A DNA stretch of 55,163 nt, from positions 1-55,163 of the forward strand of contig JACNFQ010000053.1 in the NCBI GenBank assembly GCA_014384545.1. Direction: 5' to 3'. The translations under genes were made by a program, and so were the position numbers. Shown here one piece after another: positions 3 to 53,828 of the stretch (its first letter is position 1; every line of letters starts with the position of its first letter). The notes beneath the pieces were generated by a model. The model was not told the DNA's origin. It was given only the letters and a program-made list of their open reading frames with translations, and did no database searches. This stretch comes from a bacterium. Its GTDB lineage: Bacteria > UBP7 > UBA6624.

Positions 3-767
3 AGGGCGAAACAAGAGGGGAGAAAAGGTCATGATCTCCTCCGCCAGTTGGGTACAACGGGCATCCAGACACCCATCCGTTGGGAGGGGGGGGAACTTGT
101 AGGTACCCACAGTCTCCATGATACAACTCTTGAACTCTCTGATCCAGAAGGTCCTACAGTCCACAAAAAGTGGATGACCGCTTTCAACACACATAGTGGT
201 AAGGCTATTCTTCATAAAACGCCGTGGTCTCTCTTTAGCGATTTCTTTGAACGCATCACGCCTAGGGGTGAGGAGCTATGGGTTACGAACGGCCGAGTCA
301 ATGAGTTATGGCAAAGTGGGTTTGACGATGAAAAACGTCCCTTTATTATGGACAGGTGGCCGGAGAACTTCTTTGAGATTCATCCCGACGATGCTAAGGT
401 GCGGGGTATTGAGAGTGGTGATAGACTTCGGATCGTCAACGAAGATGTCCTTATCCAAACGGGTGGGTTTGTTGCTCAAGAAGATGGTGACCTCTCCTAC
501 ACCGCACTAGAGAAAAAGGGACACATCCGCATAGGTAGGGGAGAGACTGAGGGGGTTGCCATTGTCACCACGGCAACGAAGAAGGGAGTTATCTTTACCA
601 ACTTCCTCCACCCAAAACATGCAGCGAACGCCCTCGTCCACCGGGTCCCAGACCCCCTCACAAATCGGTATCGGTTTAAGTTAGGAAAGGGGATCATTAC
701 AAAGATAGGAGAGAGCCCCTACAAGGAGGATCTCTCCCAAATGACATTCGCCCCTAGAGACCTCTAA
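3..767 (+). CDS. aioA: arsenite oxidase large subunit AioA, C-terminal part (cut by window start)
   Basis: The reading frame is open from base 3, so this is the 3' end of a longer gene; the TTG at 48 is not a real start. The protein ends in the beta-barrel molybdopterin-binding domain of the DMSO-reductase superfamily. The signature VTNGRVNELWQSGFDD, then RWPENFFEIHPDDAK and a GIESGDRLRI turn, are what I know from arsenite oxidase AioA, which oxidises arsenite in the periplasm with a bis-MGD molybdenum centre and passes electrons through the Rieske subunit AioB. The N-terminal Fe-S and active-site regions lie outside the window, so the substrate cannot be verified here. mobB, for the same cofactor, follows three bases after the stop, which supports the call. 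A related molybdoenzyme is the alternative. Confidence 0.72.
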   Translation, partial: RAKQEGRKGHDLLRQLGTTGIQTPIRWEGGELVGTHSLHDTTLELSDPEGPTVHKKWMTAFNTHSGKAILHKTPWSLFSDFFERITPRGEELWVTNGRVNELWQSGFDDEKRPFIMDRWPENFFEIHPDDAKVRGIESGDRLRIVNEDVLIQTGGFVAQEDGDLSYTALEKKGHIRIGRGETEGVAIVTTATKKGVIFTNFLHPKHAANALVHRVPDPLTNRYRFKLGKGIITKIGESPYKEDLSQMTFAPRDL

Positions 768-770
768 CAG

Positions 771-1265
771 ATGGACGCTCCTGTTCTATCGATTGTGGGT
801 CGCTCGGGTAGTGGAAAGACGACATTGGTAGAAGGAGCTGTAAAGGAGCTCTCAAGGAAAGGTGTTCGGGTAGCCGTAGTAAAACATACCCATAAAGCGC
901 TAGACATCGACACCAAAGGGAAAGATAGTTGGCGGTTTAGAGAAGCCGGTGCATCACGAACTGTCCTTGCAGGGCTGAACTGGACGATGACCCAAGAATC
1001 TGCCTCATCGATTCACGATATCCTTGAGAGGGAGCGACTGGGTGTTGACTTGGTTCTTGTGGAGGGGTTTAGTCGAGATGGTCTGCGTCCCCGCATTGAA
1101 GTTCTTGCTCCTGGACGCGAGCCCTACCTTCCCCCCGAAGAAGTTGATGCCTATCTTGTCCGAGGGAATGGTCCAACTCTCCCTTTGCAACACCCTTGGC
1201 GCCCCGCTACGACAGCTGAACTCCTTTCCGTCATTACAGAAATGACGGGGCTTCAAGTCCACTAG
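771..1265 (+). CDS. mobB: molybdopterin-guanine dinucleotide biosynthesis adaptor MobB
   Basis: A 164-residue P-loop GTPase of the MobB family, which assists MobA in attaching GMP to molybdopterin to give the MGD cofactor used by DMSO-reductase-type enzymes. Visible motifs are the Walker A loop GRSGSGKTT at residues 10-18, the segment VVKHTHKALDIDTKGKDSW with the conserved lysine and histidines, and a VLVEGFS box around the Walker B position. The length is typical of stand-alone MobB. The ATG sits three bases after the aioA stop with no clear Shine-Dalgarno, so translation is probably coupled to the upstream gene. Its position between two molybdoenzyme loci suggests it serves both (inference). 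Confidence 0.9.
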   Translation: MDAPVLSIVGRSGSGKTTLVEGAVKELSRKGVRVAVVKHTHKALDIDTKGKDSWRFREAGASRTVLAGLNWTMTQESASSIHDILERERLGVDLVLVEGFSRDGLRPRIEVLAPGREPYLPPEEVDAYLVRGNGPTLPLQHPWRPATTAELLSVITEMTGLQVH

Positions 1266-2606: not shown

Positions 2607-5225
2607 ATGACTAAAGAAAAGAAGTCAGGTACTCGGGTAGGTCCAAAATGGGGACAGGTTACCCGTCGCACCTTCCTCCAAGGAGTCGCGGCGACCTCGG
2701 GTGCAGTGGCTGGCTCATCGCTCTTTGGCGACCTCATTACCTTGTCACCACTCCCCGGAGAATCGCCCAAGCCCCTGCATGAAGACTGGATACCCACGAC
2801 TTGCTGGATTGGAAAACAAGAGTGCGGAATGCTCGCTCGGAGAATCAATGGCCATGTCGTCAAGTTGGAGGGGCTCCCTGCGCACCCGCGCAATCGTGGA
2901 ACACTTTGCCCCAAGGGGATTGCCCAAATCCAGGCGCTTTACGACCCCAATCGCGTCAAGGCACCTCTTCTCCGTACAAACGAAAAAGGCGTAAAGGGTA
3001 CGTGGCGGGAGATTTCTTGGGATGATGCTTTGGACTTGGTAGCCGAACGCATTGGGGAGGCGCGGGACCGCGATCCGTCCCTCTTCGTATGGCAGAAGGG
3101 GCGGAGCAAGGCTAAGCCTCTCTACGACAAGGCTTTTGTGGGTGCTACCGGAGCCCTGAAACTCCACCACGGTGCATTCTGCTCCGATGCAGGATACCGT
3201 GCGATGGAGTACACAATTGGGATGCATGGGGTGATGCATCCAGATTTCAAACATACGCAGTATCTCCTCTCTTGGGGATGGAACATCACGGGTGGTGGAG
3301 GAAATAAGTACTGTTGGCTTACCTGGGCACAGCAACTGGTGGAGGCGCGGCAGAGGGGGCTACGCGTTATTGATATTGATCCCCGTCTTCGAAGCGCTGC
3401 CCACTTTGCCGATGAATGGCTTCCTGTCCGTCCAGGAACGGACATGCCCCTCGCTCTCGCCCTCTGCAAGGTGCTCATTGATCAAGACACGATTGACCGT
3501 CCTTACCTCACCACCTACACGAACAGCTCCCATCTGCTCCAAGAAGACGGTTCCTTCCTCCGGGACGATGAGGGCTCCCCGTTGGTTTGGGACGAAGAAA
3601 CGGAGACGCCCCGACCCTTCGGCTCGGAGGGGATTTCTCCAGCACTGGAGGGGGTTTACTCTTGGGATGGTGCTCAGGTCCGCACCGTCTTCAGCTCCTT
3701 CAAGGACCATATCTCCACAGCCACACCTGAATGGGCTGCGGAGATTACAGGCATCCCAGCCAACCAGATTCGGAAAATCGGGAGGGAACTTGGCGACAAT
3801 GCGATGATTGGATCCACCATTGAGATTGAAGGTCACACCCTTCCCTATCGACCTGTAGCGATCATGGCTTACCACATGTCCCAACAAGAGTTGGGGTTCC
3901 AGGCGTTGCGGGCTATGACTTTTATTCCTATGCTATTAGGGGCGATTGGTGCTGTAGGTGGACAGTTTACCGACCTCACTTGGAAAGAACACAAAAACTG
4001 GAAGAAGTTAGACAACATTGAGATTACCGACACCCCCAACATCACCCTAAAGGGGTCCAAGTACTACCCCATCAACAGCAACAACTCCTCCCTTGTCGCC
4101 CATGTGATGAAGGATCCCCTACGGTACGGCGTCTCGGGGATTCCTGAGGTCGCCCTCCTTCACCATGTCAACCCTTTGGGCTCGTTCCCCGACCAAAAGG
4201 CGAACCGGGAAGCATACGCAAAGCTAAAGTTTGTAGCTGTCATTGATCCTTGGCTCTCCTTGACGGCCGACCTCTATGCGGATGTCGTTCTCCCCGCCTC
4301 CACTCTAGAAAAGTATGAGGGTCCCATGAAGGGGACCGACCAGTATGAGGATGCCGTGGCACTCCGTATTCCCCCTATGGAGCCGATCTTTGATACTAGG
4401 AGTGAAATCGAGATTTACCTTGATCTCTGCGAGCGATTGGGCGTCCTCAATGGTGAGAAAGGATACCTTGCCCTAGTCAACAAGAACCTCAAGTTGAAGC
4501 CCCCTTATACCCTCCCGCTTGACAAGAAACCGACTCCACGCGAAATATACGACATTTGGGCAAAGGGACAAGGGATCAAGGAGGGGGTCGCCTTCTTTGA
4601 GGACAACGGTGTCCTGCTAAAGGGTGCTGTGCCCGCCTCCAAGCGGTATCCCATGGCGATGGATACACCCTTTGGAGGCGTCGTCCCCCACCGTCTTTAC
4701 GGGGAATCGCTACTGGGATACGCCCGAAAGATGGAGGAGAGGGGCGCCCCCGAAATCTACTGGCGAGACTATACGCCTTTCCCAGTTTGGAGGACCCCCA
4801 CTCTGGAAGGTTCCCCAGCGAAATATGACCTTTATCTAACCAGTTTTCACAAGATAGAGTTCAAGCAATCACGCACCCCGATTCCCTTCGTACGAGAACT
4901 CGCTCCTACGCAGGTACTTGAGATCAATCCAAGTGCAGCAAGAGCCCGTGGACTTGAGGATGGAGACAGAGTCCAGGTAGAAAGCCACAATGCCGTCACA
5001 GGAGAGACCCGTAAGATTGAGACAACGGTGCGTTTCAGGGAGTCTATCCGACCCGATGTGGTGGCGATGCCCCACCATTACGGAGAACATACCAAACACC
5101 CATGGGTAGATGGCACAGGTCCCACCCCCAATACCCTTTTCTTCACAGGGGAAGGGTATGTAAGTAATACAGCCGACCAAACCTACTTGGTCAAGGTGAG
5201 GGTCTCCAAGGCCCCAAGGAGGTAG
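2607..5225 (+). CDS. molybdopterin oxidoreductase catalytic subunit, TAT-exported (CISM/PsrA-ArrA-TtrA-like)
   Basis: An 872-residue catalytic subunit of a DMSO-reductase-family complex. It has a twin-arginine signal (RRTFLQG near residues 20-26), so it acts outside the cytoplasmic membrane. The Fe4S4 domain follows, but only three of four cysteines are present: C66, C73 and C101, with glycine (G69) where the second cysteine of CxxCxxxC belongs. C192 in HHGAFCSDAG lies where the molybdenum ligand is expected, which fits polysulfide, tetrathionate, arsenate or selenate reductase-like enzymes better than nitrate (Asp) or DMSO (Ser) enzymes. The C-terminal molydopterin-binding domain is complete. 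It heads a five-gene operon with ferredoxin, NrfD and TorD genes. The substrate cannot be read from the sequence. Start chosen by Shine-Dalgarno spacing. Confidence 0.82.
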   Translation: MTKEKKSGTRVGPKWGQVTRRTFLQGVAATSGAVAGSSLFGDLITLSPLPGESPKPLHEDWIPTTCWIGKQECGMLARRINGHVVKLEGLPAHPRNRGTLCPKGIAQIQALYDPNRVKAPLLRTNEKGVKGTWREISWDDALDLVAERIGEARDRDPSLFVWQKGRSKAKPLYDKAFVGATGALKLHHGAFCSDAGYRAMEYTIGMHGVMHPDFKHTQYLLSWGWNITGGGGNKYCWLTWAQQLVEARQRGLRVIDIDPRLRSAAHFADEWLPVRPGTDMPLALALCKVLIDQDTIDRPYLTTYTNSSHLLQEDGSFLRDDEGSPLVWDEETETPRPFGSEGISPALEGVYSWDGAQVRTVFSSFKDHISTATPEWAAEITGIPANQIRKIGRELGDNAMIGSTIEIEGHTLPYRPVAIMAYHMSQQELGFQALRAMTFIPMLLGAIGAVGGQFTDLTWKEHKNWKKLDNIEITDTPNITLKGSKYYPINSNNSSLVAHVMKDPLRYGVSGIPEVALLHHVNPLGSFPDQKANREAYAKLKFVAVIDPWLSLTADLYADVVLPASTLEKYEGPMKGTDQYEDAVALRIPPMEPIFDTRSEIEIYLDLCERLGVLNGEKGYLALVNKNLKLKPPYTLPLDKKPTPREIYDIWAKGQGIKEGVAFFEDNGVLLKGAVPASKRYPMAMDTPFGGVVPHRLYGESLLGYARKMEERGAPEIYWRDYTPFPVWRTPTLEGSPAKYDLYLTSFHKIEFKQSRTPIPFVRELAPTQVLEINPSAARARGLEDGDRVQVESHNAVTGETRKIETTVRFRESIRPDVVAMPHHYGEHTKHPWVDGTGPTPNTLFFTGEGYVSNTADQTYLVKVRVSKAPRR

Positions 5226-5228
5226 GAG

Positions 5229-5972
5229 ATGGCACGATACGGAATGGTCATTGATCTCTCAAGATGTCACGGTTGCCGTGCATGTATGGTGGCGTGTAAG
5301 GTGGAGAACAACACACCCAAGGGGAGTTTTTGGAACTATGTCTTCCGGTTCGAGGAGGGGGTCTTCCCCGAGACTCGAGTCTCTTTCCTCCCTCGCCCTT
5401 GTATGCACTGCGACAACGCCCCTTGCGTGAAAGTCTGCCCTGTGGGATCCCGCCACAAGACGCTTGAGGGGCTTACCCTCACTGATTGGGATCGATGTAT
5501 TGGGTGTCGGTACTGCGAGGTCGCCTGCCCCTATGGCGTGAACTGCTTTAACTGGAAAGATCCAAAAAAGAACAGGTATTTGGACTGGAGTGACCCCTCT
5601 TTGGAGGGGGTAGAGTTGTCCCACGGCATGCCCTATGCCAACCCCGACCTAGACCTTCCACAAGGAAGTCAGGGAAGGCACACTGCTGGGGGCGGTCGGA
5701 TGAAGGGCGTGGTGGAGAAATGTACCTTTTGCGTCCATAGGTTAGAGAAGGGGCTTCTACCTGCTTGCGCCGCAAACTGCCCTGTTGGGGCGTTGGTCTT
5801 CGGCGATCTGGACGATCCCGAGAGCCCTCCCTCCCAGCTTCTGAGGGAGAAGCCTCATTTTAGGCTTCTTGAAGGGGAAGGAACCGAGCCGAGGGTCTAC
5901 TATGTCGGAGGCGCCCCTCCCACCACAGCCTCTCGGCAAATCGAAGCGGTCAAAGCGAGGGTTGAACGATGA
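5229..5972 (+). CDS. 4Fe-4S ferredoxin-type electron-transfer subunit (PsrB/NrfC/DmsB-like)
   Basis: A 247-residue iron-sulfur subunit that relays electrons between the membrane anchor and the molybdenum subunit. Four cysteine clusters are visible in order: CHGCRACMVAC, CMHCDNAPCVKVC, CIGCRYCEVAC, and the split CTFC...CAANC near residue 165-185, enough for four [4Fe-4S] clusters as in DmsB, NrfC and PsrB. The start lies three bases after the catalytic-subunit stop, with GGAGGTAGGAG as ribosome site. It has no signal peptide of its own, as expected for a subunit exported together with a TAT-bearing partner (family knowledge). Its stop overlaps the next start in an ATGA junction. Confidence 0.92.
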   Translation: MARYGMVIDLSRCHGCRACMVACKVENNTPKGSFWNYVFRFEEGVFPETRVSFLPRPCMHCDNAPCVKVCPVGSRHKTLEGLTLTDWDRCIGCRYCEVACPYGVNCFNWKDPKKNRYLDWSDPSLEGVELSHGMPYANPDLDLPQGSQGRHTAGGGRMKGVVEKCTFCVHRLEKGLLPACAANCPVGALVFGDLDDPESPPSQLLREKPHFRLLEGEGTEPRVYYVGGAPPTTASRQIEAVKARVER

Positions 5973-7258
5973 ACGAAAAGAAAAGACTCCCTTTCGGGAT
6001 GGGTCGGCTGGGCACAAAATGGTGGGTCCTAGTCGGGGTTTCCCTCACTCTAGTCACTCGGGGCATCATCGCCTACTCCCAACAAGCCTCAGAGGGGGAA
6101 GTCGTAACGGGGATGCGCGATATCGGACCGATGGGGGGCGCCGCCTGGGGACTATACATCGTCTTTGTGGTCTATTTCGTCGGAATCAGCTTTACGGGCA
6201 TCTGTCTTGCCAGCCTTATCCGTCTCCTAAACCTAAAGGTCCTTCGCCCCATCGTTCGACCTGCTGAAGTGATGACGGTCATTGCCCTTATCCTCGGTGC
6301 ACTCGCTATCCTCGCCGATGTGGGACAGCCCGGACGCGCTTTTCTTATGCTCTTGAAGTACGCCCGACCCCAATCCCCTTTCTTTGGCACATTCGCCATG
6401 GTCATTTCAGGATATCTCTTCGGTAGCCTCGTCTACCTCTACCTCCACGGACGACCCGACGCAGCTGTTCTTGCCAAGCGACCAGGTCTTCTTCAGCGGT
6501 TCCATAGGTGGTGGGCTGCCGGATACGGGGACACCCCTCCCGAGAGGGCACGACGGGTGCGAAGTTCTTTCTGGCTATCCGTAGCCCTCCTCCCACTACT
6601 GATCACAGCGACATCGACGCTGGGGTTCGTCTTTGGCCTCCAAGGGGGGCGTCCCGGATGGTTCGGCTCGCTCCAGGCTCCCGGTTTCGTGGTCATGGCA
6701 GGACTCTCAGGCGTAGGGGTCCTCATCCTTATCGCTGCTGGACTTAGACAGGCACTGGGGGAGAAGGAGCGGTTGAACCTAGAACTATTCCGGTGGCTTG
6801 CTGACTTCCTCCTTGTCCTCCTAGCAGGGTACCTCTATTTCCTCGTGGTGGAGTGGCTAACCAACTCCTATGCAGCCGGCCCCAGCGAGTCCCTCGTCTC
6901 CCAAGCGATTCTTGCAGGGGAGAATGCGTGGATCTTCTGGGGGTCGGTCGCTTTTCTCACCCTTCCTGCGTTCCTCCTTCTACTCCAGCGGTTGCGTGGA
7001 AGGGTCAGTCTTCCCCTCATCGTGGCTTGCGGGGTGATGGTCAACCTAGCAGCGATTGCAAAGCGGTTCCTCATCGTCGTTCCCTCGCAAACACATGGCA
7101 TGCTCCTTCCCTACTCCACGGGCTCCTACACGCCCTCCCTAGTGGAGTGGGAAATCGTGATCGGATTGGTGGGATTAGGAGGGCTTCTCTTCGCCCTCTT
7201 CGTAAAGGGATTCCCTATCCTTGAGTTAGACAGGGATTATCTGGGAGGCACAAAATGA
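5969..7258 (+). CDS. NrfD/PsrC-like polytopic membrane anchor, quinol-interacting
   Basis: A 429-residue integral membrane protein with roughly nine to ten hydrophobic segments, of the NrfD/PsrC family that exchanges electrons with the quinone pool. The first half contains RGIIAYSQQ near the first helix and ADVGQPGRA after the fourth, both typical of NrfD proteins, where conserved polar residues of the quinone site occur. It overlaps the ferredoxin gene by four bases (ATGA) and the following small gene in the same way, showing tight translational coupling. With the previous two genes it forms a complete three-subunit Mo/Fe-S/membrane complex. Direction of electron flow is not evident from sequence. 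Confidence 0.88.
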   Translation: MNEKKRLPFGMGRLGTKWWVLVGVSLTLVTRGIIAYSQQASEGEVVTGMRDIGPMGGAAWGLYIVFVVYFVGISFTGICLASLIRLLNLKVLRPIVRPAEVMTVIALILGALAILADVGQPGRAFLMLLKYARPQSPFFGTFAMVISGYLFGSLVYLYLHGRPDAAVLAKRPGLLQRFHRWWAAGYGDTPPERARRVRSSFWLSVALLPLLITATSTLGFVFGLQGGRPGWFGSLQAPGFVVMAGLSGVGVLILIAAGLRQALGEKERLNLELFRWLADFLLVLLAGYLYFLVVEWLTNSYAAGPSESLVSQAILAGENAWIFWGSVAFLTLPAFLLLLQRLRGRVSLPLIVACGVMVNLAAIAKRFLIVVPSQTHGMLLPYSTGSYTPSLVEWEIVIGLVGLGGLLFALFVKGFPILELDRDYLGGTK

Positions 7259-7482
7259 ACAGAACCGCGATCGCAATCTGGATGGTGGTGGCTGGATTCT
7301 CACTCCAGTTCTTCGCCTATTTCCGTTGGGCAGCTCCTCTGGGAGCTCCGACAAGTCCGGCCTTCAGCGACCCACGCATCCCCTATGCCCCGGCTGCCTT
7401 TATTTTCGGCGTGATGCTCGTCTTCCTCTCCGCCGTTGTCTACGAACTTCAGGGTGGTGGGGAGGGAGAATCTGATGGCTGA
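7255..7482 (+). CDS. small two-helix membrane protein of the molybdoenzyme operon
   Basis: A 75-residue protein with two hydrophobic segments (about residues 6-26 and 46-64) and an acidic glycine-rich tail. I do not recognise a named family. It overlaps the NrfD gene by four bases at its start and the TorD-like gene by eight bases at its end, so it is certainly translated with the operon. An accessory or assembly subunit of the membrane anchor is a reasonable inference from position alone. Confidence 0.7.
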   Translation: MNRTAIAIWMVVAGFSLQFFAYFRWAAPLGAPTSPAFSDPRIPYAPAAFIFGVMLVFLSAVVYELQGGGEGESDG

Positions 7483-8233
7483 GTTGGCTGCTGCAGAGGC
7501 TCGAGCAAAGGAGGCTCTCTATCGCCTGGGGGCTGCGGTCTTCCTTTACCCGACCCCTGAACAACTGACACGCCTCAAGGAGGGAGCAATCCGCCTTGAT
7601 TCTGGAGAGGGGCCTCTCTCCCCCTCGTTGGCAGATCTGGTGGGAATCATCAAGAGGATTCGCCCCTCACTGAGCCTCCCTCTTGAAGAAGCCTACTGTC
7701 GCCTCTTCCGTGTGAATCCCCCTGCCCCGCCCTATGAATCACATTACATTGATAAGGCAGGGCTGGGGGCGGGGGGGATTGCGGCTACCTTAGAGGAAGA
7801 GTACGCCACTGTGGGACTTACGCCCAAACCGTCCCTGAATGAGCCCCCCGACCACCTCTCCATGGAGATGGAGTTCCTTGCCCATCTCTCTGGGAAAGAG
7901 GCAGCAGCTTGGGAGGAGTGGAATCCGGAGGTTGCCCTTGATTGGAGAGAAGAGCGGCGGGGATTCCTAAACCGCCATCTCGCCCAGTGGCTCTCCTTGT
8001 TCCAGGAAAAGGTACTCCCAAACAGTCCGCCCACCATCTATAGTTCCGCTCTTCGGATGGCAGAGGAATTGCTCGCCGTAGAGATTGAGAGATCCCCTGT
8101 AAAGAAGAGCACTAGGGAGACTTGTCTCAATCCCGTCTTTTCTGAGCCACGAGACACGAGAGATGAGGGAAGTGCATCTATACTCCCTCATCTCTGTAAG
8201 GGCGATCGAATAAAGCCCTCGGAGCAAACTTGA
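7475..8233 (+). CDS. TorD/DmsD-family molybdoenzyme chaperone
   Basis: A cytoplasmic chaperone that would bind the TAT signal of the catalytic subunit and guard cofactor insertion before export. TorD-family marks are EEAYCRLFRV followed by PPYESHY, and the later PDHLSMEMEFLAHL motif. I chose the ATG at 7475 (252 residues) over the upstream TTG at 7436, because GGGAGGGAGAA precedes it at good spacing and it overlaps the previous stop by only eight bases. The last forty residues, rich in charged residues, are not part of the core family fold. The catalytic subunit in the same operon is the obvious client. Confidence 0.88.
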   Translation: MAELAAAEARAKEALYRLGAAVFLYPTPEQLTRLKEGAIRLDSGEGPLSPSLADLVGIIKRIRPSLSLPLEEAYCRLFRVNPPAPPYESHYIDKAGLGAGGIAATLEEEYATVGLTPKPSLNEPPDHLSMEMEFLAHLSGKEAAAWEEWNPEVALDWREERRGFLNRHLAQWLSLFQEKVLPNSPPTIYSSALRMAEELLAVEIERSPVKKSTRETCLNPVFSEPRDTRDEGSASILPHLCKGDRIKPSEQT

Positions 8234-10052: not shown

Positions 10053-10079
10053 TAGATTACACCTATGAAGGAAGAATGA
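10053..10079 (+). promoter_or_regulatory. oah operon promoter with a five-codon leader reading frame
   Basis: TAGATT at 10053-10058 is spaced exactly as at the leaderless genes of this window relative to an ATG at 10065. That ATG opens a tiny frame, ATG AAG GAA GAA TGA, whose stop overlaps the oah ATG at 10076 in an ATGA junction. The AAGGAAG inside it also serves as a Shine-Dalgarno for oah. A TGATCA palindrome at 10028-10033 lies further upstream. Confidence 0.4.
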
Positions 10080-11167
10080 TTGAATTGAAAAACCACACTT
10101 TGCCCGAGGGGGCTTTTGAAGGTGTCCGTTACGAACTTAGATCCGTATTGGATCAAGCAGGAAACCGGGTCCCTCACCTCCATAACGCTTGGATCGTTCT
10201 GGACAATCCTGACCAGTACAACAGTTACACCACAGAAATGGTCAAAGAGGTCATCCTTTCATTCCGCCGGGCTTCGTCCGACAGGAGCGTTGTCGCCGTC
10301 GTCTTTACAGGGGTGGGGCACCAGGCCTTCTGTACGGGTGGAAACACCAAAGAGTATGCCGAGTATTACGCCGGAAACCCCCAAGAATACCGCCAATATA
10401 TGCGCCTTTTCAACGATATGGTTTCGGCGATTCTTGGGTGCGACAAGCCCGTCATATGTCGGGTAAATGGAATGCGTATTGGGGGTGGGCAAGAGATTGG
10501 GATGGCTTGTGATTTTTCGGTCGCCCACGATCTAGCTCGGTTTGGTCAGGCAGGTCCGAAACATGGCTCGGCTGCCATCGGGGGTGCTACCGACTTCTTG
10601 CCCCTCTTGATTGGTGTAGAGCGCGCCTTAGAAAGTGGCACCCTTTGTGAAGTTTGGTCTGCCCACAAAGCCCATCGGCTGGGGATGCTAACCGAGATCG
10701 TTCCCGCCTTGAAAGTTAATGGCGACTTTGTTCCTAACCCTCTCGTTGAGACGGCTCAATACTTGGACGCCTTCGGTCGAATCATCCATGGCGAATCGAA
10801 GACGGGCGATGCTCTTCGCGAAGGAAAGGGTGTGCTTAAACAGGGGGAAGTTTCGCTTGAATTATTGGACGAAGCCGTCGACCGCCTATCTACAAAGTTT
10901 CTTATGACCTTCCCCGACTGCCTCACAAAATCGCTTGAAGAGTTGCGTAAGCCAAAGCTTGAATCGTGGAATAGAAACAAAGAGAGTTCTCGCGCTTGGT
11001 TGGCCTTGAACATGATGACAGAAGCGCGTGCGGGTTTTATCGCTTTCAATGAGGGCACACGGGAAACAGGAAGAGAAGTGGACTTTATTCTCCTACGCCA
11101 ACGGCTAGCAGAAGGCGCACCCTGGACCGAAGAGTTGCGGCAGGAGATTTCCCCCCAAGAGGGCTAA
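10076..11167 (+). CDS. oah: 6-oxocyclohex-1-ene-1-carbonyl-CoA hydrolase (Oah/BamA)
   Basis: A 363-residue crotonase-superfamily enzyme matching the Oah/BamA family (not the outer-membrane BamA). It adds water twice to 6-oxocyclohexene-carbonyl-CoA and opens the ring to 3-hydroxypimelyl-CoA, the hallmark step of anaerobic benzoyl-CoA degradation. Strongly family-specific segments are HNAWIVLDNPDQYNSYTTEM, FCTGGNTKEYAEYYAG, the oxyanion-hole stretch RVNGMRIGGGQEIGMACD, and RFGQAGPKHGSA. Length is close to the usual 370-380 residues. It heads a four-gene operon with touching or overlapping stops and starts. This gene is widely used as a marker for anaerobic aromatic degraders, so the call carries real metabolic weight. 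Confidence 0.95.
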   Translation: MIELKNHTLPEGAFEGVRYELRSVLDQAGNRVPHLHNAWIVLDNPDQYNSYTTEMVKEVILSFRRASSDRSVVAVVFTGVGHQAFCTGGNTKEYAEYYAGNPQEYRQYMRLFNDMVSAILGCDKPVICRVNGMRIGGGQEIGMACDFSVAHDLARFGQAGPKHGSAAIGGATDFLPLLIGVERALESGTLCEVWSAHKAHRLGMLTEIVPALKVNGDFVPNPLVETAQYLDAFGRIIHGESKTGDALREGKGVLKQGEVSLELLDEAVDRLSTKFLMTFPDCLTKSLEELRKPKLESWNRNKESSRAWLALNMMTEARAGFIAFNEGTRETGREVDFILLRQRLAEGAPWTEELRQEISPQEG

Positions 11168-11874
11168 TGGCTTTATTAGGCGAGGCACCAGTCGCCCTTG
11201 TGGTGGGGGGGAAGGGGGGGATTGGTTCGGCGATCGTAAAAGAGCTTTCTAGCAAGGGATGGGATGTGCTAACGATGGACATCCACCCCGAAGGGGATGA
11301 TTTGGAGATTAGGGTAGATTTGTCAGACGAAGCTGCCGTGGTGGATAGTTTTAACAGGTTTAGAATGAGGCGCGAGCGTCTGGATGGCTTGGTCTTTGCT
11401 GCTGGTATCTGGAGAGACCGTATTTCGTGGAAGCTAACTGCAGAGGATTGGGACACCGTTCAATCTGTCAACCTAAGAGGAGCCTTTCTGGCAACGAAAG
11501 AAGCGACCCCTCTCCTCAGAAAGAGTCCCCGGGGTCGCCTTCTCTTTGTGGGCTCTATCAATGGAGCAAGAGGTAAAGTGGGCCAAGCCGCTTACTGTGC
11601 CTCTAAGGCGGGATTAGAGGGATTGATGAAGACACTCGCTAGAGAACTGGGCAGGGATGGAATCACATCTAACCTTTTAGCTCCCGGCTTGATTGCGACC
11701 CCTCCTACCCTCTCTCTCCCTAGCGAAGTCTGGGAGAATGCAGAGAAAGAGCGTCTCCTTCCCCAAGCAGGCACCCCCGAAGATGTGGCAGCGATGGCGG
11801 GATTCCTCCTTTCCAAGGAAGGGGGGTTCATCACAGGTCAAGTCATTAATGTGGACGGGGGACAAGGGTTATGA
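11167..11874 (+). CDS. short-chain dehydrogenase/reductase in the benzoyl-CoA operon
   Basis: A 235-residue classical SDR (FabG-like). It has the nucleotide-binding turn GGKGGIGSAIV, the FAAGIW strand equivalent to NNAG, serine in LLFVGSINGARG, and the catalytic YCASK. The C-terminus ends with GQVINVDGGQGL as in FabG-like reductases. It overlaps oah by one base (TAATG) and had by four (ATGA), so it belongs to the pathway operon. Oxidation of 3-hydroxypimelyl-CoA or of a cyclic hydroxyacyl-CoA (BadH-like) would fit. This role is inference from position, and the exact substrate is open. Confidence 0.8.
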   Translation: MALLGEAPVALVVGGKGGIGSAIVKELSSKGWDVLTMDIHPEGDDLEIRVDLSDEAAVVDSFNRFRMRRERLDGLVFAAGIWRDRISWKLTAEDWDTVQSVNLRGAFLATKEATPLLRKSPRGRLLFVGSINGARGKVGQAAYCASKAGLEGLMKTLARELGRDGITSNLLAPGLIATPPTLSLPSEVWENAEKERLLPQAGTPEDVAAMAGFLLSKEGGFITGQVINVDGGQGL

Positions 11875-12896
11875 CGATGCGAGCTGCTCTTTATCGGGGA
11901 GTGCCCCGAATGGAAGTAGAGGATTTGCCCGTGCCTTCCCCGAGTGCGGGAGAAGTTCTGGTCAAGGTTGCGGGTTGCGGAATCTGTCATACTGATCTTC
12001 ATTACCTTGATCATGGTGTCCCCACCTTCAAAAAACCTCCTTTGGTGTTGGGTCATGAGATTTCGGGGACGGTTGAATCCTGGGGAGAGGAGGTCTCGGA
12101 TTGGGAAGAAGGGGACAGGGTCCTATTACCAGCGGTCACATCTTGTGGGACTTGTTCCTATTGTGCATCGGGAAGAAGCAACATTTGTGCCCGTATGAAG
12201 ATGTTTGGGAATGATGTAGATGGTGGGTATGCCGAGTATGTCGTTGCCCCTGCCCGTGAAATCTATCCTCTACCCGACTCAATACCCTTGATAGAAGGCT
12301 CTGTAATTGCCGATGCCGTCAGTACACCGTGGCATGCAGTGAACAATCGAGCCAAGATCCAAAAAGGAGAAGAGGTCGTCGTTTATGGCGTAGGTGGTGT
12401 GGGTATCAATGTCGTCCAATGTGCTGTTGCCGCAGGGGCGCGTGTCACTGCCGTTGATATTGACGCCAGCAAGCTAGAGAAGGCGAAGGAACTGGGGGCG
12501 ACAGAGACAATCTGTGCCCCACAGGGCGAAAGTGCTCATAAAGAAGTCAAGAGGATTACGGGGGGGGGAGCCCATTGTGCGATTGAGGCGATTGGACGAG
12601 CAGATACGATTCAGTCCGCTTTTTCCTCTGTTAGGAGGGGAGGAAGATTGGTTGTTTTGGGATATACCCACGAGAAAGTCCCCCTCCCTATGGGCAAGCT
12701 CATGTATCACGAAATGTCTGTGGTGGGCACTTTGGGATGTGGTGGAGGCGACTACCCAGAGATTATTCGGGCGGTCGCCGAAGGAGAACTCGCTTTGGGA
12801 CCGATAGTCTCTGGGCAAATACCTTTGGAAAAAATCAATGAGGGCTTTGACCTGCTCCGAGCGGGAGAGGGGCTTCGATGGGTGGTAATACCATGA
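11871..12896 (+). CDS. had: 6-hydroxycyclohex-1-ene-1-carbonyl-CoA dehydrogenase (zinc alcohol dehydrogenase)
   Basis: A 341-residue medium-chain zinc alcohol dehydrogenase. Catalytic-zinc residues are in GCGICHTDLHY and the GHEISGTV segment. The structural zinc cysteines are in CGTCSYCASGRSNIC, and the dinucleotide-binding turn is YGVGGVGINVVQ. The GVPTFKKPPLVLGHEISG stretch resembles Had/BamQ, which makes the 6-oxo compound that Oah cleaves. Placement between oah and dch decides the call over a generic alcohol dehydrogenase. ATGA overlap with the preceding SDR. Confidence 0.86.
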   Translation: MTMRAALYRGVPRMEVEDLPVPSPSAGEVLVKVAGCGICHTDLHYLDHGVPTFKKPPLVLGHEISGTVESWGEEVSDWEEGDRVLLPAVTSCGTCSYCASGRSNICARMKMFGNDVDGGYAEYVVAPAREIYPLPDSIPLIEGSVIADAVSTPWHAVNNRAKIQKGEEVVVYGVGGVGINVVQCAVAAGARVTAVDIDASKLEKAKELGATETICAPQGESAHKEVKRITGGGAHCAIEAIGRADTIQSAFSSVRRGGRLVVLGYTHEKVPLPMGKLMYHEMSVVGTLGCGGGDYPEIIRAVAEGELALGPIVSGQIPLEKINEGFDLLRAGEGLRWVVIP

Positions 12897-13666
12897 CTGT
12901 AACGACAACTTGGAATCCTGAGGGGGTAGCGTGGCTTTCGCTAGATAGCCCCCCGGGGAATATTCTGGACTTAGAGATGATGGGGGATCTCTCTAATGCG
13001 ATGACCGAACTAGAAGAAGGTAAGCACCGACCTTATGCGGTCATTCTTCGGGGGGCTGGAGGGAACTTCTGCTACGGGGCAAGTGTAGAGGAGCATCTTC
13101 CTGACAAAGTGGAAGAGATGCTATTCCACTTTACTGAACTCTTGCGCCAAATGGTCGCTTTCCCTGCTGTCACCATCGCTGCTGTCTCTGGAAAAGCGTT
13201 GGGAGGTGGTTATGAACTCGCTTTGGGATGCGATAGGCTCATCCTTGACACGAATGCGGTTGTAGGACTTCCGGAGATTCGCTTGTGCGTTTTTCCTCCT
13301 GCTGGACTTGCCCTCCTTCCCCTAAGAGCGGGAGACGGAACCGTTGCGGATGCCGTTCTTGCGGGGCGTCTCATTGGTGCTGAAGAAGCTGTCCAAAAAC
13401 GGTTAGCTGATGTCTTGACAACTGATGTAGAAAAGGAGATTCTCCAATGGCTGGAGGGGGGGGTCTTGCATCATTCCCGTGCGAGTCTTCGTGTCGCGAT
13501 AGACAGAATGAGACGGCGGCGGCGTGATGTGCTGGAATCAGAACTCCCTAAACTCCACCGCATGTATCTCCACGAACTGACACAATTCCACGATGGAGAA
13601 GAGGGGATAAGGGCTTTCTGCGAGAAGAGAAAACCCGAGTGGGATCACATCGACTTCGTTAAGTAG
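12893..13666 (+). CDS. dch: cyclohexa-1,5-dienecarbonyl-CoA hydratase (crotonase family)
   Basis: A 257-residue enoyl-CoA hydratase/isomerase family protein. It would hydrate cyclohexa-1,5-diene-1-carbonyl-CoA, the product of benzoyl-CoA reductase, to the 6-hydroxy compound used by Had. Crotonase features are the oxyanion-hole strand LRGAGGNFCYGASVEEH, the central AVSGKALGGGYELALGCD and VGLPEIRL. I start it at 12893, where ATG overlaps the had stop in ATGA like the other junctions, rather than at 12878. The gene ends two bases from the convergent feoB with no terminator visible. With oah and had it completes the three-enzyme ring-cleavage module. Confidence 0.85.
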   Translation: MTVTTTWNPEGVAWLSLDSPPGNILDLEMMGDLSNAMTELEEGKHRPYAVILRGAGGNFCYGASVEEHLPDKVEEMLFHFTELLRQMVAFPAVTIAAVSGKALGGGYELALGCDRLILDTNAVVGLPEIRLCVFPPAGLALLPLRAGDGTVADAVLAGRLIGAEEAVQKRLADVLTTDVEKEILQWLEGGVLHHSRASLRVAIDRMRRRRRDVLESELPKLHRMYLHELTQFHDGEEGIRAFCEKRKPEWDHIDFVK

Positions 13667-44960: not shown

Positions 44961-46949
44961 ATGACAAAAAATAAGAATCTGCTTTCTTGGGGGTTGGTTG
45001 CCGCGGTACTTCTCTTCGTTGCCGTTAGCGCCTTCGCCCCTCGAACGAGCACACGACTAGGGCGAGGAGCTACTGCGATTGCTGCCGACCGGGATTTAAC
45101 CCCCGACGACATCGAAGCCGCACTAAAGACCTATATGCCCTCCGGTCGCCACGACGACTACATTATGTTCTCTTCAGGAGGACACGCAGGACAAGTCTTC
45201 GTCATTGGCTTGCCATCCATGCGCATACTCAAGACAATCGGAGTCTTTACTCCGGAGCCTTGGCAAGGTTGGGGAACAGGTGCCCAAGATACAATGGATA
45301 TCCTTGCTGATGGCGCAGTAGACGGTATAGAGATCACATGGGGGGACACCCACCACCCCGCCCTTTCTGAAACAGGGGGCGAGTATGACGGACAATGGCT
45401 CTTTATCAATGACAAGGCAAATGCTCGGGTTGCCCTTATTGACCTGAAGGACTTTGAGACAAAACAGATCGTAAAAAACCCCATCGCCATCAACGATCAC
45501 GGCGGCACCAAGGTGACGCCCGATACTGAATGGGTGATTGAGGGTGGACAATATGCCACACCTCTGGGTTATGAGTATGCACCCATAAGTGATTATGCTG
45601 ATTCCTATCGTGGAATGGTCACTTTCTGGAAGTTTGACCGATTGGCTGGGCGCATTGACAAGAGTGCCTCTTTTGCGATGGAGCTTCCTCCCTACTGGCA
45701 AGACCTTTGTGATGCTGGGAAGAAAGTGAGTGAAGGATGGGTCGTTTGTGGCTCGTTCAACTCCGAGATGGCAACCGGGGGAATTGAAGACGGAAACCCA
45801 CCCTTTGAAGCGGGTGCGTCCCAACGAGACATGGACTATCTCCATATCATCAATCTGGATGCTGCGATTCGGGTCGCTCGTGCCGGACAAACATCTGACA
45901 TAAATGGATTCCCGGTCATCTCTCTTGAGAGATCCATCGCAGAGAACCTCCTCTACTTAGCTCCCGAACCAAAAAGCCCCCATGGTGCAGACATCACGCC
46001 TGGTGGTGAATACATTGTCGTCAGTGGGAAACTCGATCCCCATGTCACGATTTACTCTTGGGCCAAGATTCAATCCTCCATTCGAGCTGGTAACCATCGT
46101 ACGGACAGTTACGGTGTCCCCATTCTTCCTTTTGACTCGGTTGTAGAAGCTCAAGTAGAGGTCGGATTGGGTCCTCTTCATACTGAGTTTGACAACCAAG
46201 GGTACGCTTACACCAGCCTCTTCCTAGAGCCAGCTGTTGCCCGCTGGACCTTGGGTGGTCCTTACGAACGCCTCCACCCAGAAAAGGGGTGGCAACTCGT
46301 CCAACAGATTCCGGTTCATTACAATGTGGGACACCTCGTTACAGCTGAAGGTGATACCGTAAGCCCCGATGGCAAATACTTGGTCTCTTTGAACAAGTGG
46401 GCATTAGACCGCTTCGCGAATGTCGGTCCCCTACTCCCTCAGAACTTCCAGTTGATTGACATTGAGAACAATGGTGATGCCATGAAGTTGCTCTATGACA
46501 TGCCTATGGGTATTGGAGAACCCCACTACGCTCAGATTATCAAAGCTGACAAACTAAACCCCTGGGAGGTCTACCCCGAGGTGGGATGGAACCCCACCAC
46601 AGGGACGATTGATGAGCACGCCGTGATGTTAGGCGAAGAGCGTGTGGAAAGACATGGAAACACCGTTGAGATCTTTATGACGGCTATCCGCAGCCACTTC
46701 ACCCCAGAGCGCATTGATATTCGAAAGGGTGATCATGTGATTTGGCACATTACAAATGTGGAGCGAGCCTACGATGCAACGCACGGATTCGCGCTACCTG
46801 GATACAACATCAATGTCTCTATTGAACCAGGCGAAGCGTTGTCTTTTGAGTTTGATGCTACCAACGATGGAGTCTTTACCTATTACTGCACAGAGTTCTG
46901 CTCTGCTCTCCACTTGGAGATGATGGGCTACCTTCAGGTACGACCGTAA
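44961..46949 (+). CDS. nosZ: nitrous-oxide reductase NosZ (clade II, Sec-type signal)
   Basis: A 662-residue periplasmic copper enzyme that reduces N2O to N2. The N-terminus is a Sec-like helix (LLSWGLVAAVLLFVAVSAFA) without a twin-arginine motif, as in clade II (atypical) NosZ. The propeller holds CuZ-type histidine segments: FSSGGHAGQVFV, DTHHPALS, INDHGGTKV, SPHGADITPGG, GPLHTEFD, and MGEPHY-like GIGEPHYAQI. The C-terminal cupredoxin has the CuA ligands C643, C647, H651 and M654 in YCTEFCSALHLEMMG. Its position before nosD, nosF, nosY and nosL confirms the call. Expression would let the host respire N2O from the environment without a full denitrification path. Confidence 0.97.
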   Translation: MTKNKNLLSWGLVAAVLLFVAVSAFAPRTSTRLGRGATAIAADRDLTPDDIEAALKTYMPSGRHDDYIMFSSGGHAGQVFVIGLPSMRILKTIGVFTPEPWQGWGTGAQDTMDILADGAVDGIEITWGDTHHPALSETGGEYDGQWLFINDKANARVALIDLKDFETKQIVKNPIAINDHGGTKVTPDTEWVIEGGQYATPLGYEYAPISDYADSYRGMVTFWKFDRLAGRIDKSASFAMELPPYWQDLCDAGKKVSEGWVVCGSFNSEMATGGIEDGNPPFEAGASQRDMDYLHIINLDAAIRVARAGQTSDINGFPVISLERSIAENLLYLAPEPKSPHGADITPGGEYIVVSGKLDPHVTIYSWAKIQSSIRAGNHRTDSYGVPILPFDSVVEAQVEVGLGPLHTEFDNQGYAYTSLFLEPAVARWTLGGPYERLHPEKGWQLVQQIPVHYNVGHLVTAEGDTVSPDGKYLVSLNKWALDRFANVGPLLPQNFQLIDIENNGDAMKLLYDMPMGIGEPHYAQIIKADKLNPWEVYPEVGWNPTTGTIDEHAVMLGEERVERHGNTVEIFMTAIRSHFTPERIDIRKGDHVIWHITNVERAYDATHGFALPGYNINVSIEPGEALSFEFDATNDGVFTYYCTEFCSALHLEMMGYLQVRP

Positions 46950-51046: not shown

Positions 51047-51450
51047 ACAGAACGTCAGCGATGCTTGCCTTAGAGGGATTGATCCGATTGGCTGCATTGC
51101 CAAGAGAAGAGTACCACACCTTGGCCGAAATCTGTCCACCAAACTCACCAACTCCACCCTATTTTGCGAAAGTATTTCAACGGCTATCCCTTTCACCTAT
51201 CGTCTCGGCACGAAGGGGACCTGGGGGCGGGTACAAACTGACGATCTCTCCCCAAGAGATTACTTTAGAGGCCGTGATTCTTGCCTCTACCGAACAAAAG
51301 AGCCTCTCATCCTGCCTTCTCAGAGATGCCCCTTGCGGGTCTGAACCTGCCTGTCCGCTACACAAACTGTTGAAGGATGAACAGATTGCACTCTCTCATC
51401 AAATTACCTCATTGACCTTAGAAGACTTGCTTGAAAGCGAGGGTGCCTAG
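51043..51450 (+). CDS. Rrf2-family Fe-S transcription regulator (NsrR/IscR-like)
   Basis: A 135-residue Rrf2 regulator. The N-terminal winged helix (LALEGLIRLAALPREEYHTLAEI) is followed by the wing RRGPGGGYKLTISPQ. Three cysteines, C91, C98 and C104, lie at the cluster-ligand positions of IscR and NsrR (C-x6-C-x5-C), so it likely senses NO or redox state through an Fe-S cluster. It is the last gene of the nos operon, with an ATGA overlap to nosL, so it may adjust N2O reduction to NO or oxygen. Its gene converges on ctaG with a four-base overlap of stops and no terminator between. Confidence 0.88.
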   Translation: MNRTSAMLALEGLIRLAALPREEYHTLAEICPPNSPTPPYFAKVFQRLSLSPIVSARRGPGGGYKLTISPQEITLEAVILASTEQKSLSSCLLRDAPCGSEPACPLHKLLKDEQIALSHQITSLTLEDLLESEGA

Positions 51451-52298
51451 GTTTCGTCTAGGTTTGGGTGCGGATTCGCCTTGTGATGCTTGTGACTCCA
51501 AGAGAAAAAAGTCCCTGCCCACGCCACTGTATATCCAACCATAGCGGCTATCTTCATGATAATACCACCCAGTTTTTGATCTTCAAGAGGCGAGAAATCG
51601 AGCCATCCCTCTAGCCGCGGTGCCACTTGATAAGTGGGATAGAAGACTTGGTCACTAAACGAGAGAATGCCAAACGCAGGAAGCTGTGCCACGGGAAATG
51701 CGAAGATATAGAGGAGTCTGGCACCAAAGGAGAGGCGTGGCCATCCGGGGACAGGATTGAGGAGGGGCCACCAAGAGAGAATTGCACCAAAGAGCATTGT
51801 CGCATGTTCTAGATTGTGGATGGGGGTGCTGTGAAGGGCTGCCTCGTAAAGGCGTGGCAGGTGCCAACCCAAAAAGAAGAGATGGAAAAGAGCCCAAGCC
51901 ACGAGAGGTTTTGTCAGGGTTTGGAGGATGGGTCGGATAAGGGGGCGGTCAAACAAGCTCTTGGCGAGTGCCGGAGGAATCCCGACCAAGAGGGCTACAG
52001 CAACAGGGAAGATGAAGAGGATATGTTGGACCATATGAACCCAAAACAGATACTCTTCGCCCACATGGTCAATGGGCGAAGAAACTGCGACATAGAAGAG
52101 GGCTACACCAAAGAAAAAGGAGAGTGCTCTCCACAGAGGGTATGGCGTTCCCTTTCCCCATTTTTCCCTCCAAGGACCAATGCCAAAAAAATATAGGGAT
52201 AGCACACCCAAGAGAAGGACCAAGAGGGGAACCTCATGAGTCCAAGTTGAGATATTTTCTGATTCGTGGAGCCCCGTATGGAGGAAGAGCATTCTCAT
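51447..52298 (-). CDS. ctaG: CtaG-type cytochrome c oxidase assembly factor (Caa3_CtaG)
   Basis: A 283-residue membrane protein with about seven helices of the Caa3-type CtaG family, needed to mature the copper sites of caa3 oxidases. Family segments are SSPIDHVGEEYLFWVHMVQHIL, PLVAWALFHLFFLGWHLP, and HNLEHATMLFGAILSWWPLL; the paired histidines are probable metal ligands. The gene has its own promoter candidate (GATAAT) in the 42-base gap after the COX IV-cytochrome gene. Separate from the older Cox11-like CtaG. It stands with the oxidase genes, supporting the caa3-type identification. Confidence 0.9.
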   Translation of the reverse strand: MRMLFLHTGLHESENISTWTHEVPLLVLLLGVLSLYFFGIGPWREKWGKGTPYPLWRALSFFFGVALFYVAVSSPIDHVGEEYLFWVHMVQHILFIFPVAVALLVGIPPALAKSLFDRPLIRPILQTLTKPLVAWALFHLFFLGWHLPRLYEAALHSTPIHNLEHATMLFGAILSWWPLLNPVPGWPRLSFGARLLYIFAFPVAQLPAFGILSFSDQVFYPTYQVAPRLEGWLDFSPLEDQKLGGIIMKIAAMVGYTVAWAGTFFSWSHKHHKANPHPNLDET

Positions 52299-52305
52299 AT
52301 GAAGT

Positions 52306-52311
52306 ATTATC
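52306..52311 (-). promoter_or_regulatory. -10 box of ctaG
   Basis: GATAAT on the minus strand at -13 to -8 of the ATG at 52298. There is no Shine-Dalgarno, so ctaG may be leaderless like the other genes with this spacing. Confidence 0.35.
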
Positions 52312-52340
52312 CCAAAAACTATGTCGTGGAAGAAGCGTCG

Positions 52341-53078
52341 CTAGAGAGAAGCTAGATAGTGCAAGAGAGCTTCGACTTCTTCATCAGATGCTGTCATCGT
52401 AAGTCCCATCGGCATCATGCCCTTAATGAACCCTTTTGGTGCACGCTTCATTGGGTCTAGAACAGATTCTCGAATATAGGCGGTATCCACAATAATCGTT
52501 GTGCCATCATCCATCTCTTGCTCCCGTCCTAATAGACCCTTCCAAGAAGGTCCGACCAACCGTGAGCCGTCCACACTATGGCATGCCGAACAACCCAATT
52601 GAGTCGCTACCGTTTCGCCTAAAGCAATCATCTCATCCTTCGTAAGGGCGTTTCCACCTTCACAGGGGTTTGCCACCTCCATCTCAACGACCTCTCCCCC
52701 TTCACAGGGGTTTGTTGGCGTGGGATCGGGTGTGTGACAGGGGTTTGCCACCTCAATCTCAACGACCTCTGGGGTTTGGTGGGCAACCTCGCTACGGGGA
52801 CTGGGCTGGGCAGCATTTGGGTTCAACATCACAATGATAGCCCAGGCACTGCCAGCAATCAGAAAGACCCCCATCCCGAAGATCCAACCCAACAAGGCGG
52901 GGTCTTTCTTGAGGTGCATGTAGACCTGGATGACCAACCAAAACTTGAGGGCTGCTAGCGAGAGCAAAAGGACGTTGTAAACGGTTTGCGGTGACCACGA
53001 AGGGAGCATCACCTCCACTACAGTCACCAATGTCAAGATCACAGCGATTTTTAGGTAGTTATTGTTCTTGTTGCTCAT
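52341..53078 (-). CDS. cytochrome oxidase subunit IV-like membrane domain fused to a cytochrome c domain
   Basis: A 245-residue fusion. Residues 1-90 hold three membrane helices of the prokaryotic COX IV (CyoD/CtaF) type (YLKIAVILTLVTVVEVML, VYNVLLLSLAALKFWLVIQ, YMHLKKD, GWIFGMGVFLIAG). A linker (95-145) contains repeats ending in NPC (C114, C125, C139). Residues 150-245 are a class I cytochrome c with the heme motif CSACH (C163-H167) and a Met-rich GMMPMGL ligand region. In caa3 oxidases the cytochrome c is normally fused to subunit II, so placement on subunit IV is unusual. GAGGAG precedes the ATG by eight bases. Confidence 0.85.
   Translation of the reverse strand: MSNKNNNYLKIAVILTLVTVVEVMLPSWSPQTVYNVLLLSLAALKFWLVIQVYMHLKKDPALLGWIFGMGVFLIAGSAWAIIVMLNPNAAQPSPRSEVAHQTPEVVEIEVANPCHTPDPTPTNPCEGGEVVEMEVANPCEGGNALTKDEMIALGETVATQLGCSACHSVDGSRLVGPSWKGLLGREQEMDDGTTIIVDTAYIRESVLDPMKRAPKGFIKGMMPMGLTMTASDEEVEALLHYLASL
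52662..52770. repeat. 34-bp direct repeat inside the COX IV-cytochrome linker
   Basis: Copies at 52662-52695 and 52737-52770 differ at one base and are 75 bases apart, exactly 25 codons. A partial third copy of the first 11 bases lies at 52703-52713. The repeats encode the linker with the VANPC and TNPC segments, so the linker likely grew by in-frame duplication. Confidence 0.8.
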
Positions 53079-53090
53079 TTTCTTACTCCT

Positions 53091-53828
53091 CTAGGACCCA
53101 GGCATTTCCATCAAGTAGACAACGGAGAAAATCACAATCCAAACGACATCAACGAAGTGCCAATAAAGGCCTGCTACTTCAACATGGACTGCTTTTTTCT
53201 TTGTGACACCTCCCCAAAACGAGTGGACCAACAAAAGAATCATCCAAAGAACACCCACCGCCACGTGCACGCCATGAAAGCCTGTTAGTAGATAAAAAGA
53301 AGCCCCAAAAAGGTTCGTTTGCATCGTTAGCCCTTCTTCAATAAAAGTAGAGAATTCGAAGACTTGATAGCCCAAGAAAACCAACCCACAGAGAATCGTG
53401 GCCACATTCCATAGACGGAACTTTCCCAAATCCCCCCGTTGAATTGCTGCCAACTGGAGCACCATCGTTAGGGAGCTAGTCAAGAGAATAAAGGTGCTGA
53501 TTGTGGTCGTCTGGAAGTCAAAGACATCAAGGGGCCATGGACCTGTCAAACTCCTTCCTTTATAGACCAAATACCCTGCAATTAAGCTCCCGAACAACAT
53601 GCAGTCGCTAGCGATGTATGCCCACCAAAGGAGCTTGATGTGGGGAACACCAGTCCCCTCGGGCGGCTTAGGGGGACCTTCGGTCTGGTCATCGGGCACG
53701 GCAGGTACCGTTTGGGGTTTCTTTCGAACCAATCCCAAAATACCATAAAAGGTAAAGACTGCAACACCAAACGCAGCGACCACAAGAGCGAGTCCCATTA
53801 GGGGAGAAAGTGTACTGGCAAGAATCAT
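53091..53828 (-). CDS. ctaE: cytochrome c oxidase subunit III
   Basis: A 245-residue subunit III with seven helices. The first two are separated by a proline-rich loop (PAVPDDQTEGPPKPPEGTG), then IKLLWWAYIASDCMLFGSL, the GASFYLLTGFHGVHVAVG segment, and the family end EVAGLYWHFVDVVWIVIF. The long first loop is unusual for the family. The ATG at 53828 overlaps the subunit I stop in ATGA and is chosen over the longer frame. It would stabilise the oxidase and help oxygen uptake (family knowledge). Confidence 0.93.
   Translation of the reverse strand: MILASTLSPLMGLALVVAAFGVAVFTFYGILGLVRKKPQTVPAVPDDQTEGPPKPPEGTGVPHIKLLWWAYIASDCMLFGSLIAGYLVYKGRSLTGPWPLDVFDFQTTTISTFILLTSSLTMVLQLAAIQRGDLGKFRLWNVATILCGLVFLGYQVFEFSTFIEEGLTMQTNLFGASFYLLTGFHGVHVAVGVLWMILLLVHSFWGGVTKKKAVHVEVAGLYWHFVDVVWIVIFSVVYLMEMPGS

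Follow-up and report, generated by a model that had tools for sequence, protein, structure and literature searches.

Gene A of the window, the whole 55,163-nucleotide stretch of DNA analysed here, is supported by sequence comparison as a member of a separate, monophyletic and uncharacterised CISM subfamily, in which a glycine takes the place of the second cysteine of the FS0 motif. FS0 is the electron gateway in almost all Fe-S molybdoenzymes. The chance is somewhat below even (about 45%) that gene A encodes the catalytic subunit of a quinone-linked enzyme that acts on an oxyanion, most likely of arsenic, and carries a [3Fe-4S] FS0 cluster on three cysteines; the cluster type, the substrate and the direction of the reaction are what we infer for the subfamily. 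The window belongs to a 1.4-Mb draft genome (79% complete, 107 contigs), and its relevant features are as follows.

3..767 (+): second MopB protein, of AioA/IdrA type, of which the contig start leaves the C-terminal part; it does not belong to the gene A complex (52.5% identity to an Azonexus hydrophilus protein)
771..1265 (+): MobB, guanine-dinucleotide cofactor synthesis, upstream of gene A (PF03205, 112 bits)
2607..5225 (+): gene A, catalytic Mo/W-bisPGD (MopB) subunit, 872 residues (Pfam and NCBIfam matches)
2802..2909 (+): FS0 motif with the glycine substitution, C66-WI-G69-KQE-C73-x27-C101, and then PKG
3180..3182 (+): codon of C192, the putative Mo ligand
3312..3314 (+): codon of C236, a cysteine that is invariant in the clade and specific to it, and a candidate relocated FS0 ligand (from the alignment)
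5229..5972 (+): gene B, ferredoxin subunit with four 4Fe-4S motifs (ArrB 207 bits, cut-off 450; DsrO 190 bits, cut-off 200)
5969..7258 (+): gene C, NrfD/PsrC-type membrane quinone subunit (PF03916, 86 bits)
7436..8233 (+): gene D, TorD/NarJ-type chaperone with an uncertain start (PF02613, 86 bits; TIGR03482, 72 bits)

Gene A starts with ATG, with a GTG at 2604 as an alternative start, and its product has a Tat signal (TRRTFLQG). The Mo domain PF00384, the dinucleotide-binding domain PF01568 and the Fe4S4 domain PF04879, which Pfam still detects at 31 bits, all score above their gathering cut-offs and place the protein in the MopB (DMSO reductase) superfamily. A canonical CISM A subunit has four protein ligands for FS0 in a CxxCxxxC-xn-C motif. 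In gene A, the spacing is kept as C-x2-G-x3-C-x27-C with glycine at the second position, as the initial annotation had read it: the codons are TGC for C66 (2802-2804), GGA for G69 (2811-2813), and those at 2823-2825 and 2907-2909 for C73 and C101. The sequence CWIGKQ[D/E/G]C is found in 21/21 members with a readable N-terminus, the window included. The corresponding column holds cysteine in 47 of 48 other MopB proteins, namely Arr-like, Arx, Ttr-like, Phs-like and Aio proteins, E. coli DmsA, YnfF, NapA, NarG, TorA and FdnG, and unnamed ones; the sole exception is TorA, which lacks FS0. This distribution indicates that G69 is due neither to chance nor to error. A sequencing error or a decaying gene, which the fragmentation of the draft genome into contigs might suggest, is extremely improbable. 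Because GGA is two base changes away from TGT and TGC, a single sequencing error is no explanation; the 872-residue frame and the operon are intact, and a search for close homologues with cysteine at position 69 found none among the 21 members. This candidate was therefore ruled out.

The proposal that C192 is the Mo ligand agrees with the alignment, in which this predicted ligand falls on the Mo-ligand cysteine of Psr and Arr; the column is cysteine in all 21 members and in 37/48 of the other MopB proteins. The CISM-type partner genes that had been noted are likewise present, because a four-cluster ferredoxin subunit, an NrfD-type membrane quinone subunit and a TorD-type REMP chaperone are encoded next to gene A, as in CISM complexes. 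The order A-B-C(NrfD)-D(TorD) is kept among the homologue loci.

The subfamily forms a single clade in a tree of 66 proteins (SH-aLRT 100). When the FS0 and C236 columns are left out of a 47-protein tree, the 19 members included still form one clade (SH-aLRT 100), and the change between glycine and cysteine at column 69 occurs once on that tree. Arr together with Arx, Ttr-like, Phs/Psr and Aio proteins are all separate from this clade, so that the earlier expectation of an uncharacterised subfamily with its own clade and a glycine at the column is borne out, and gene A falls into no characterised clade among references that do not include SrdA, PadB, SoeA or bona fide TtrA and whose Ttr-like and ArrA-like members score below their curated cut-offs. 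The best NCBIfam model for gene A, PhsA (NF012032), gives 225 bits against a cut-off of 694, and the protein lies outside the PhsA/PsrA clade. The ArrA model (NF041714) gives 148 bits against a cut-off of 1600, which the ArrA-like references also do not reach, and the TtrA model (NF011567) gives 69 bits against 1750, with gene A separate from Ttr-like references that are themselves below the cut-off. The active-site motif of gene A, QKGRSK, matches neither the ArrA motif (R/K)GRY nor the ArxA motif XGRGWG, and the protein does not group with ArxA. The AioA model (TIGR02693) gives 26 bits against 359; AioA and IdrA are found in a far clade, and the partner of gene A is a ferredoxin/NrfD pair, not a Rieske small subunit. 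Among PDB sequences, polysulfide reductase (2vpw) is the best match, followed by ArrA (6cz7). A Foldseek search of the PDB with a model of moderate quality puts ArrA, PcrA and PsrA on top, with 6cz7 as the best match and low TM-scores of 0.4-0.5.

Lower benzoyl-CoA degradation genes are located downstream of the gene A operon at 10076-13663 (+); they encode a 6-oxocyclohex-1-ene-1-carbonyl-CoA hydratase (612 bits, above the cut-off) and SDR, Had-like and dienoyl-CoA hydratase-like proteins. They hint at phenylacetyl-CoA oxidoreductase PadB as the identity of gene A. However, the flanks of the homologues showed no benzoyl-CoA genes recognisable by comparison with those of the window, and this identity was set aside.

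The bacterial members of the subfamily come from Chloroflexota, Bacillota and further lineages, and one member is from a haloarchaeon, Natronorubrum bangense. Seven relatives at 57-65% identity were found when species genomes were scanned. Profile searches found members in 10/400 Chloroflexota genomes, in 2/349 Bacillota genomes at full score and in 5/386 genomes of a broad bacterial sample that counts the genome of the window, and a plasmid of Natronorubrum bangense encodes a member of 32% identity. Viral contigs yielded no relatives, whether scanned with the A2 profile or with a Phs-like, PhsA, NapA or FdnG query, and a literature search found no mention of "CWIGKQ". The "Deep" unaffiliated CISM of Halodesulfurarchaeum (PMC5437934) and the Psr operon of the natronoarchaeal strain AArc-Sl, which has arsenite-resistance genes on its flanks (PMC6176080), might be relatives.

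Eleven positions are strictly diagnostic, being invariant in the clade and rare elsewhere (67, 68, 69, 70, 71, 231, 236, 239, 481, 753 and 850), and eight of them fall within two short segments, the FS0 loop (67-71) and the C236 loop (231, 236 and 239). C236 is cysteine in 21/21 members and in 0/48 other MopB proteins. It is placed in the loop or first helical turn after a Rossmann-type strand (219-224), and its segment is 34-35 residues long in the subfamily; most other families have 29-34 residues there, and some have more. The only five clade-invariant cysteines are 66, 73, 101, 192 and 236. Because these amount to one Mo ligand plus four, C236 is a candidate replacement ligand for FS0. The earlier call of a separate subfamily with a glycine thus holds, but the initial annotation overlooked this clade-invariant cysteine and with it a possible fourth ligand.

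The Tat-exported A subunit would bind Mo/W-bisPGD with C192 ligating the metal, and would carry out a two-electron exchange with an oxyanion, for which arsenite/arsenate is the most likely choice. FS0, the four clusters in B and the NrfD-type subunit C would form the electron path between this oxyanion and the quinone pool, in either direction, with FS0 held by three of the usual four cysteines, likeliest as a high-potential [3Fe-4S] cluster. In natural [3Fe-4S] sites, such as those of succinate dehydrogenase and NarH-type subunits, the second cysteine of CxxCxxxC is usually the one replaced, and by this analogy the [3Fe-4S] form is ranked first. However, the lost position in these sites usually holds a residue bulkier than glycine, and this pattern, together with possible ligation by C236, counts against it. 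A relocated ligand, in which C236 replaces the second cysteine, G69 makes room for its loop and FS0 stays a four-cysteine [4Fe-4S] cluster of unusual geometry, has an appreciable although minor chance of being right. The count of invariant cysteines and the clustering of diagnostic positions in the two loops argue for it, but fold inference predicts C236 at a helix start after the cofactor-phosphate loop, which may put it some 10 A or further away from FS0. Nor do structure models place the loop: AlphaFold2 with eight close homologues gives a pLDDT of 49, and adding five DmsA sequences raises it to 67.8 while residues 228-239 stay below 50.

A site-differentiated [4Fe-4S] cluster, with three cysteines and water, hydroxide or another ligand on the fourth iron, would have an altered potential or even allow chemistry at FS0. 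The small glycine at the fourth site and the adjacent invariant KQ, which could hydrogen-bond an exogenous ligand, are compatible with such a site, but FS0 of the relatives is an electron-transfer site and we know of no precedent in the MopB superfamily, which makes it quite improbable. Still less probable is an enzyme that works with FS0 missing, like TorA/DMSO reductase. Column 69 lacks a cysteine in just one other protein of the set, TorA, but TorA has lost the entire motif, whereas CPKG, three of the cysteines and the spacing CxxGxxxC are invariant in the subfamily. Moreover, loss of FS0 in NarG blocks insertion of the Mo cofactor (PMC10609526), which together with this conservation makes absence of the cluster unlikely and suggests that the site is probably still occupied.

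An FlpD/poly-ferredoxin protein is encoded in about twelve subfamily loci and an FmdE-domain protein in four. FlpD/MvhD and poly-ferredoxin genes lie 3' of TorD in L010, L030, L088, L089, L091, L092, L093, L096, L098 and L099 and are absent from the operon of the window. They may act in cluster maturation or in electron transfer in the cytosol; NapF serves cluster assembly for NapA (PMC10609526), and it is a speculation by analogy that the poly-ferredoxin does the same.

Gene neighbours make arsenic the leading candidate for the substrate of the subfamily, although they may mislead. Seven loci, from six genomes, have next to A a sensor module made up of a periplasmic binding protein, a histidine kinase and a response regulator. 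The binding proteins linked in this way can be aligned with Sulfuricella ArxX, and all of them retain the AioX/ArxX/ArrX pocket, Y88, C106, Y131, S161, S163, H192 and D210, with E210 in one and with serine or threonine at position 163, where Sulfuricella ArxX also has threonine. E. coli PhnD, used for comparison, has glycine at 106 and asparagine at 210, and C106 alone is also present in unlinked binding proteins. AioX and ArxX bind arsenite and ArrX binds arsenate, each matching its own enzyme (PMC5908839). Arsenic genes are found near A in three distant, unrelated loci: L004 has Acr3 and an ArsC-like gene directly next to A, L100 has ArsR and an Acr3-ArsC-like fusion near it, and Natronorubrum has ArsR and an ArsC-like phosphatase gene near it; most loci have no ars genes. 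Five genomes have an Acr3 above the cut-off, within 10 kb of A in two. The genome of the window, 79% complete, showed no such sensor and no Acr3. These sensor and resistance genes beside homologues escaped the initial annotation, whose subfamily call they leave in place.

It is quite possible, with odds below even, that the same enzyme acts on a non-arsenic oxyanion of sulfur, selenium, antimony or iodine and that the arsenic genes are bystanders. The sensor module is not exclusive to the subfamily, because a Ttr-like MopB gene lies beside a module of the same type and an FmdE gene in G041 (L112, G041:C44:10000-21000). The scarcity of ars genes among the loci and a QKGRSK motif unlike those of Arr and Arx point the same way, as does the IdrA-like neighbour of gene A at 3-767, which is a probable iodate-reductase-like enzyme by its similarity to a large subunit of Azonexus hydrophilus whose gene, on a plasmid, has two cytochrome c peroxidase genes next to it. 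However, the linked sensors keep the AioX pocket in full and ars genes lie near A in three lineages, which argues against bystanders. In G1102, the subfamily A gene has another Ttr-like MopB gene immediately upstream of it (L099, 1-2511), and the two enzyme types may be functionally linked. Under the arsenic reading, arsenite oxidation is slightly favoured as the direction because the genome of the window encodes a clade II (Sec-type) nitrous oxide reductase, a high-potential electron acceptor (44961-46943, +; 819 bits). ORFs 3' of this gene resemble nos accessory genes, and ORFs at 51450-55081 resemble cytochrome oxidase genes by eye only. The boldest combination, in which the subfamily joins Aio, Arx and Arr as a fourth and independent lineage of molybdoenzymes that respire arsenic, shared by bacteria and haloarchaea and with FS0 rebuilt by loss of one cysteine and recruitment of C236 from the cofactor-binding loop, is distinctly unlikely.

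A clade with an altered FS0 is a natural experiment on how ligand number relates to the potential and assembly of this cluster. If the arsenic reading is true, current ArrA and AioA profiles, which do not recognise the subfamily enzyme, are causing arsenic metabolism genes to be overlooked in haloarchaea, Chloroflexota and other bacteria. CWIGKQxC and the C236 loop together provide a simple diagnostic signature.

Among known systems, the nearest in the tree is an uncharacterised sister clade of MopB A subunits (L011, L012, L044, L045 and Sporomusa L082; SH-aLRT 99-100), of which L011 and L012 are about 31% identical to the subfamily; unlike the subfamily, it has an intact CxxCxxxC-type motif and lacks C236 and the clade motif. 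About a dozen further paralogues related to this sister clade are present in G044, the 1.9-Mb genome of L007. ArrA and ArxA resemble the subfamily in the best score of gene B, to ArrB, in an X-S-R sensor with the same pocket and in the GR at their motif near the active site, and arx also has NrfD and TorD partners; however, they form a separate clade, and G69, C236 and QKGRSK set the subfamily apart. PsrA and PhsA share the best NCBIfam and PDB sequence matches and an A-B-NrfD-type complex with it but have a canonical four-cysteine FS0, a separate clade and a family cut-off that gene A does not reach. AioA and IdrA have also naturally lost one FS0 cysteine, which in AioA is the fourth one and leaves a [3Fe-4S] FS0. 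IdrA has a [3Fe-4S] FS0 as well (PMC10100899); both differ from the subfamily in their far clade and in a Rieske partner subunit in place of B and NrfD. Another natural ligand loss is seen in a different MopB (L013, G031:C5) that reads CWQCVVRDG at FS0, with the third cysteine replaced (Asp/Gly). The iron–sulfur subunit of succinate dehydrogenase and NarH resemble the proposed FS0 in their [3Fe-4S] centre, and NarH and EbDH beta each have one (PMC10609526, PMC8840923), but the former two are ferredoxin-like subunits and not catalytic MopB proteins.
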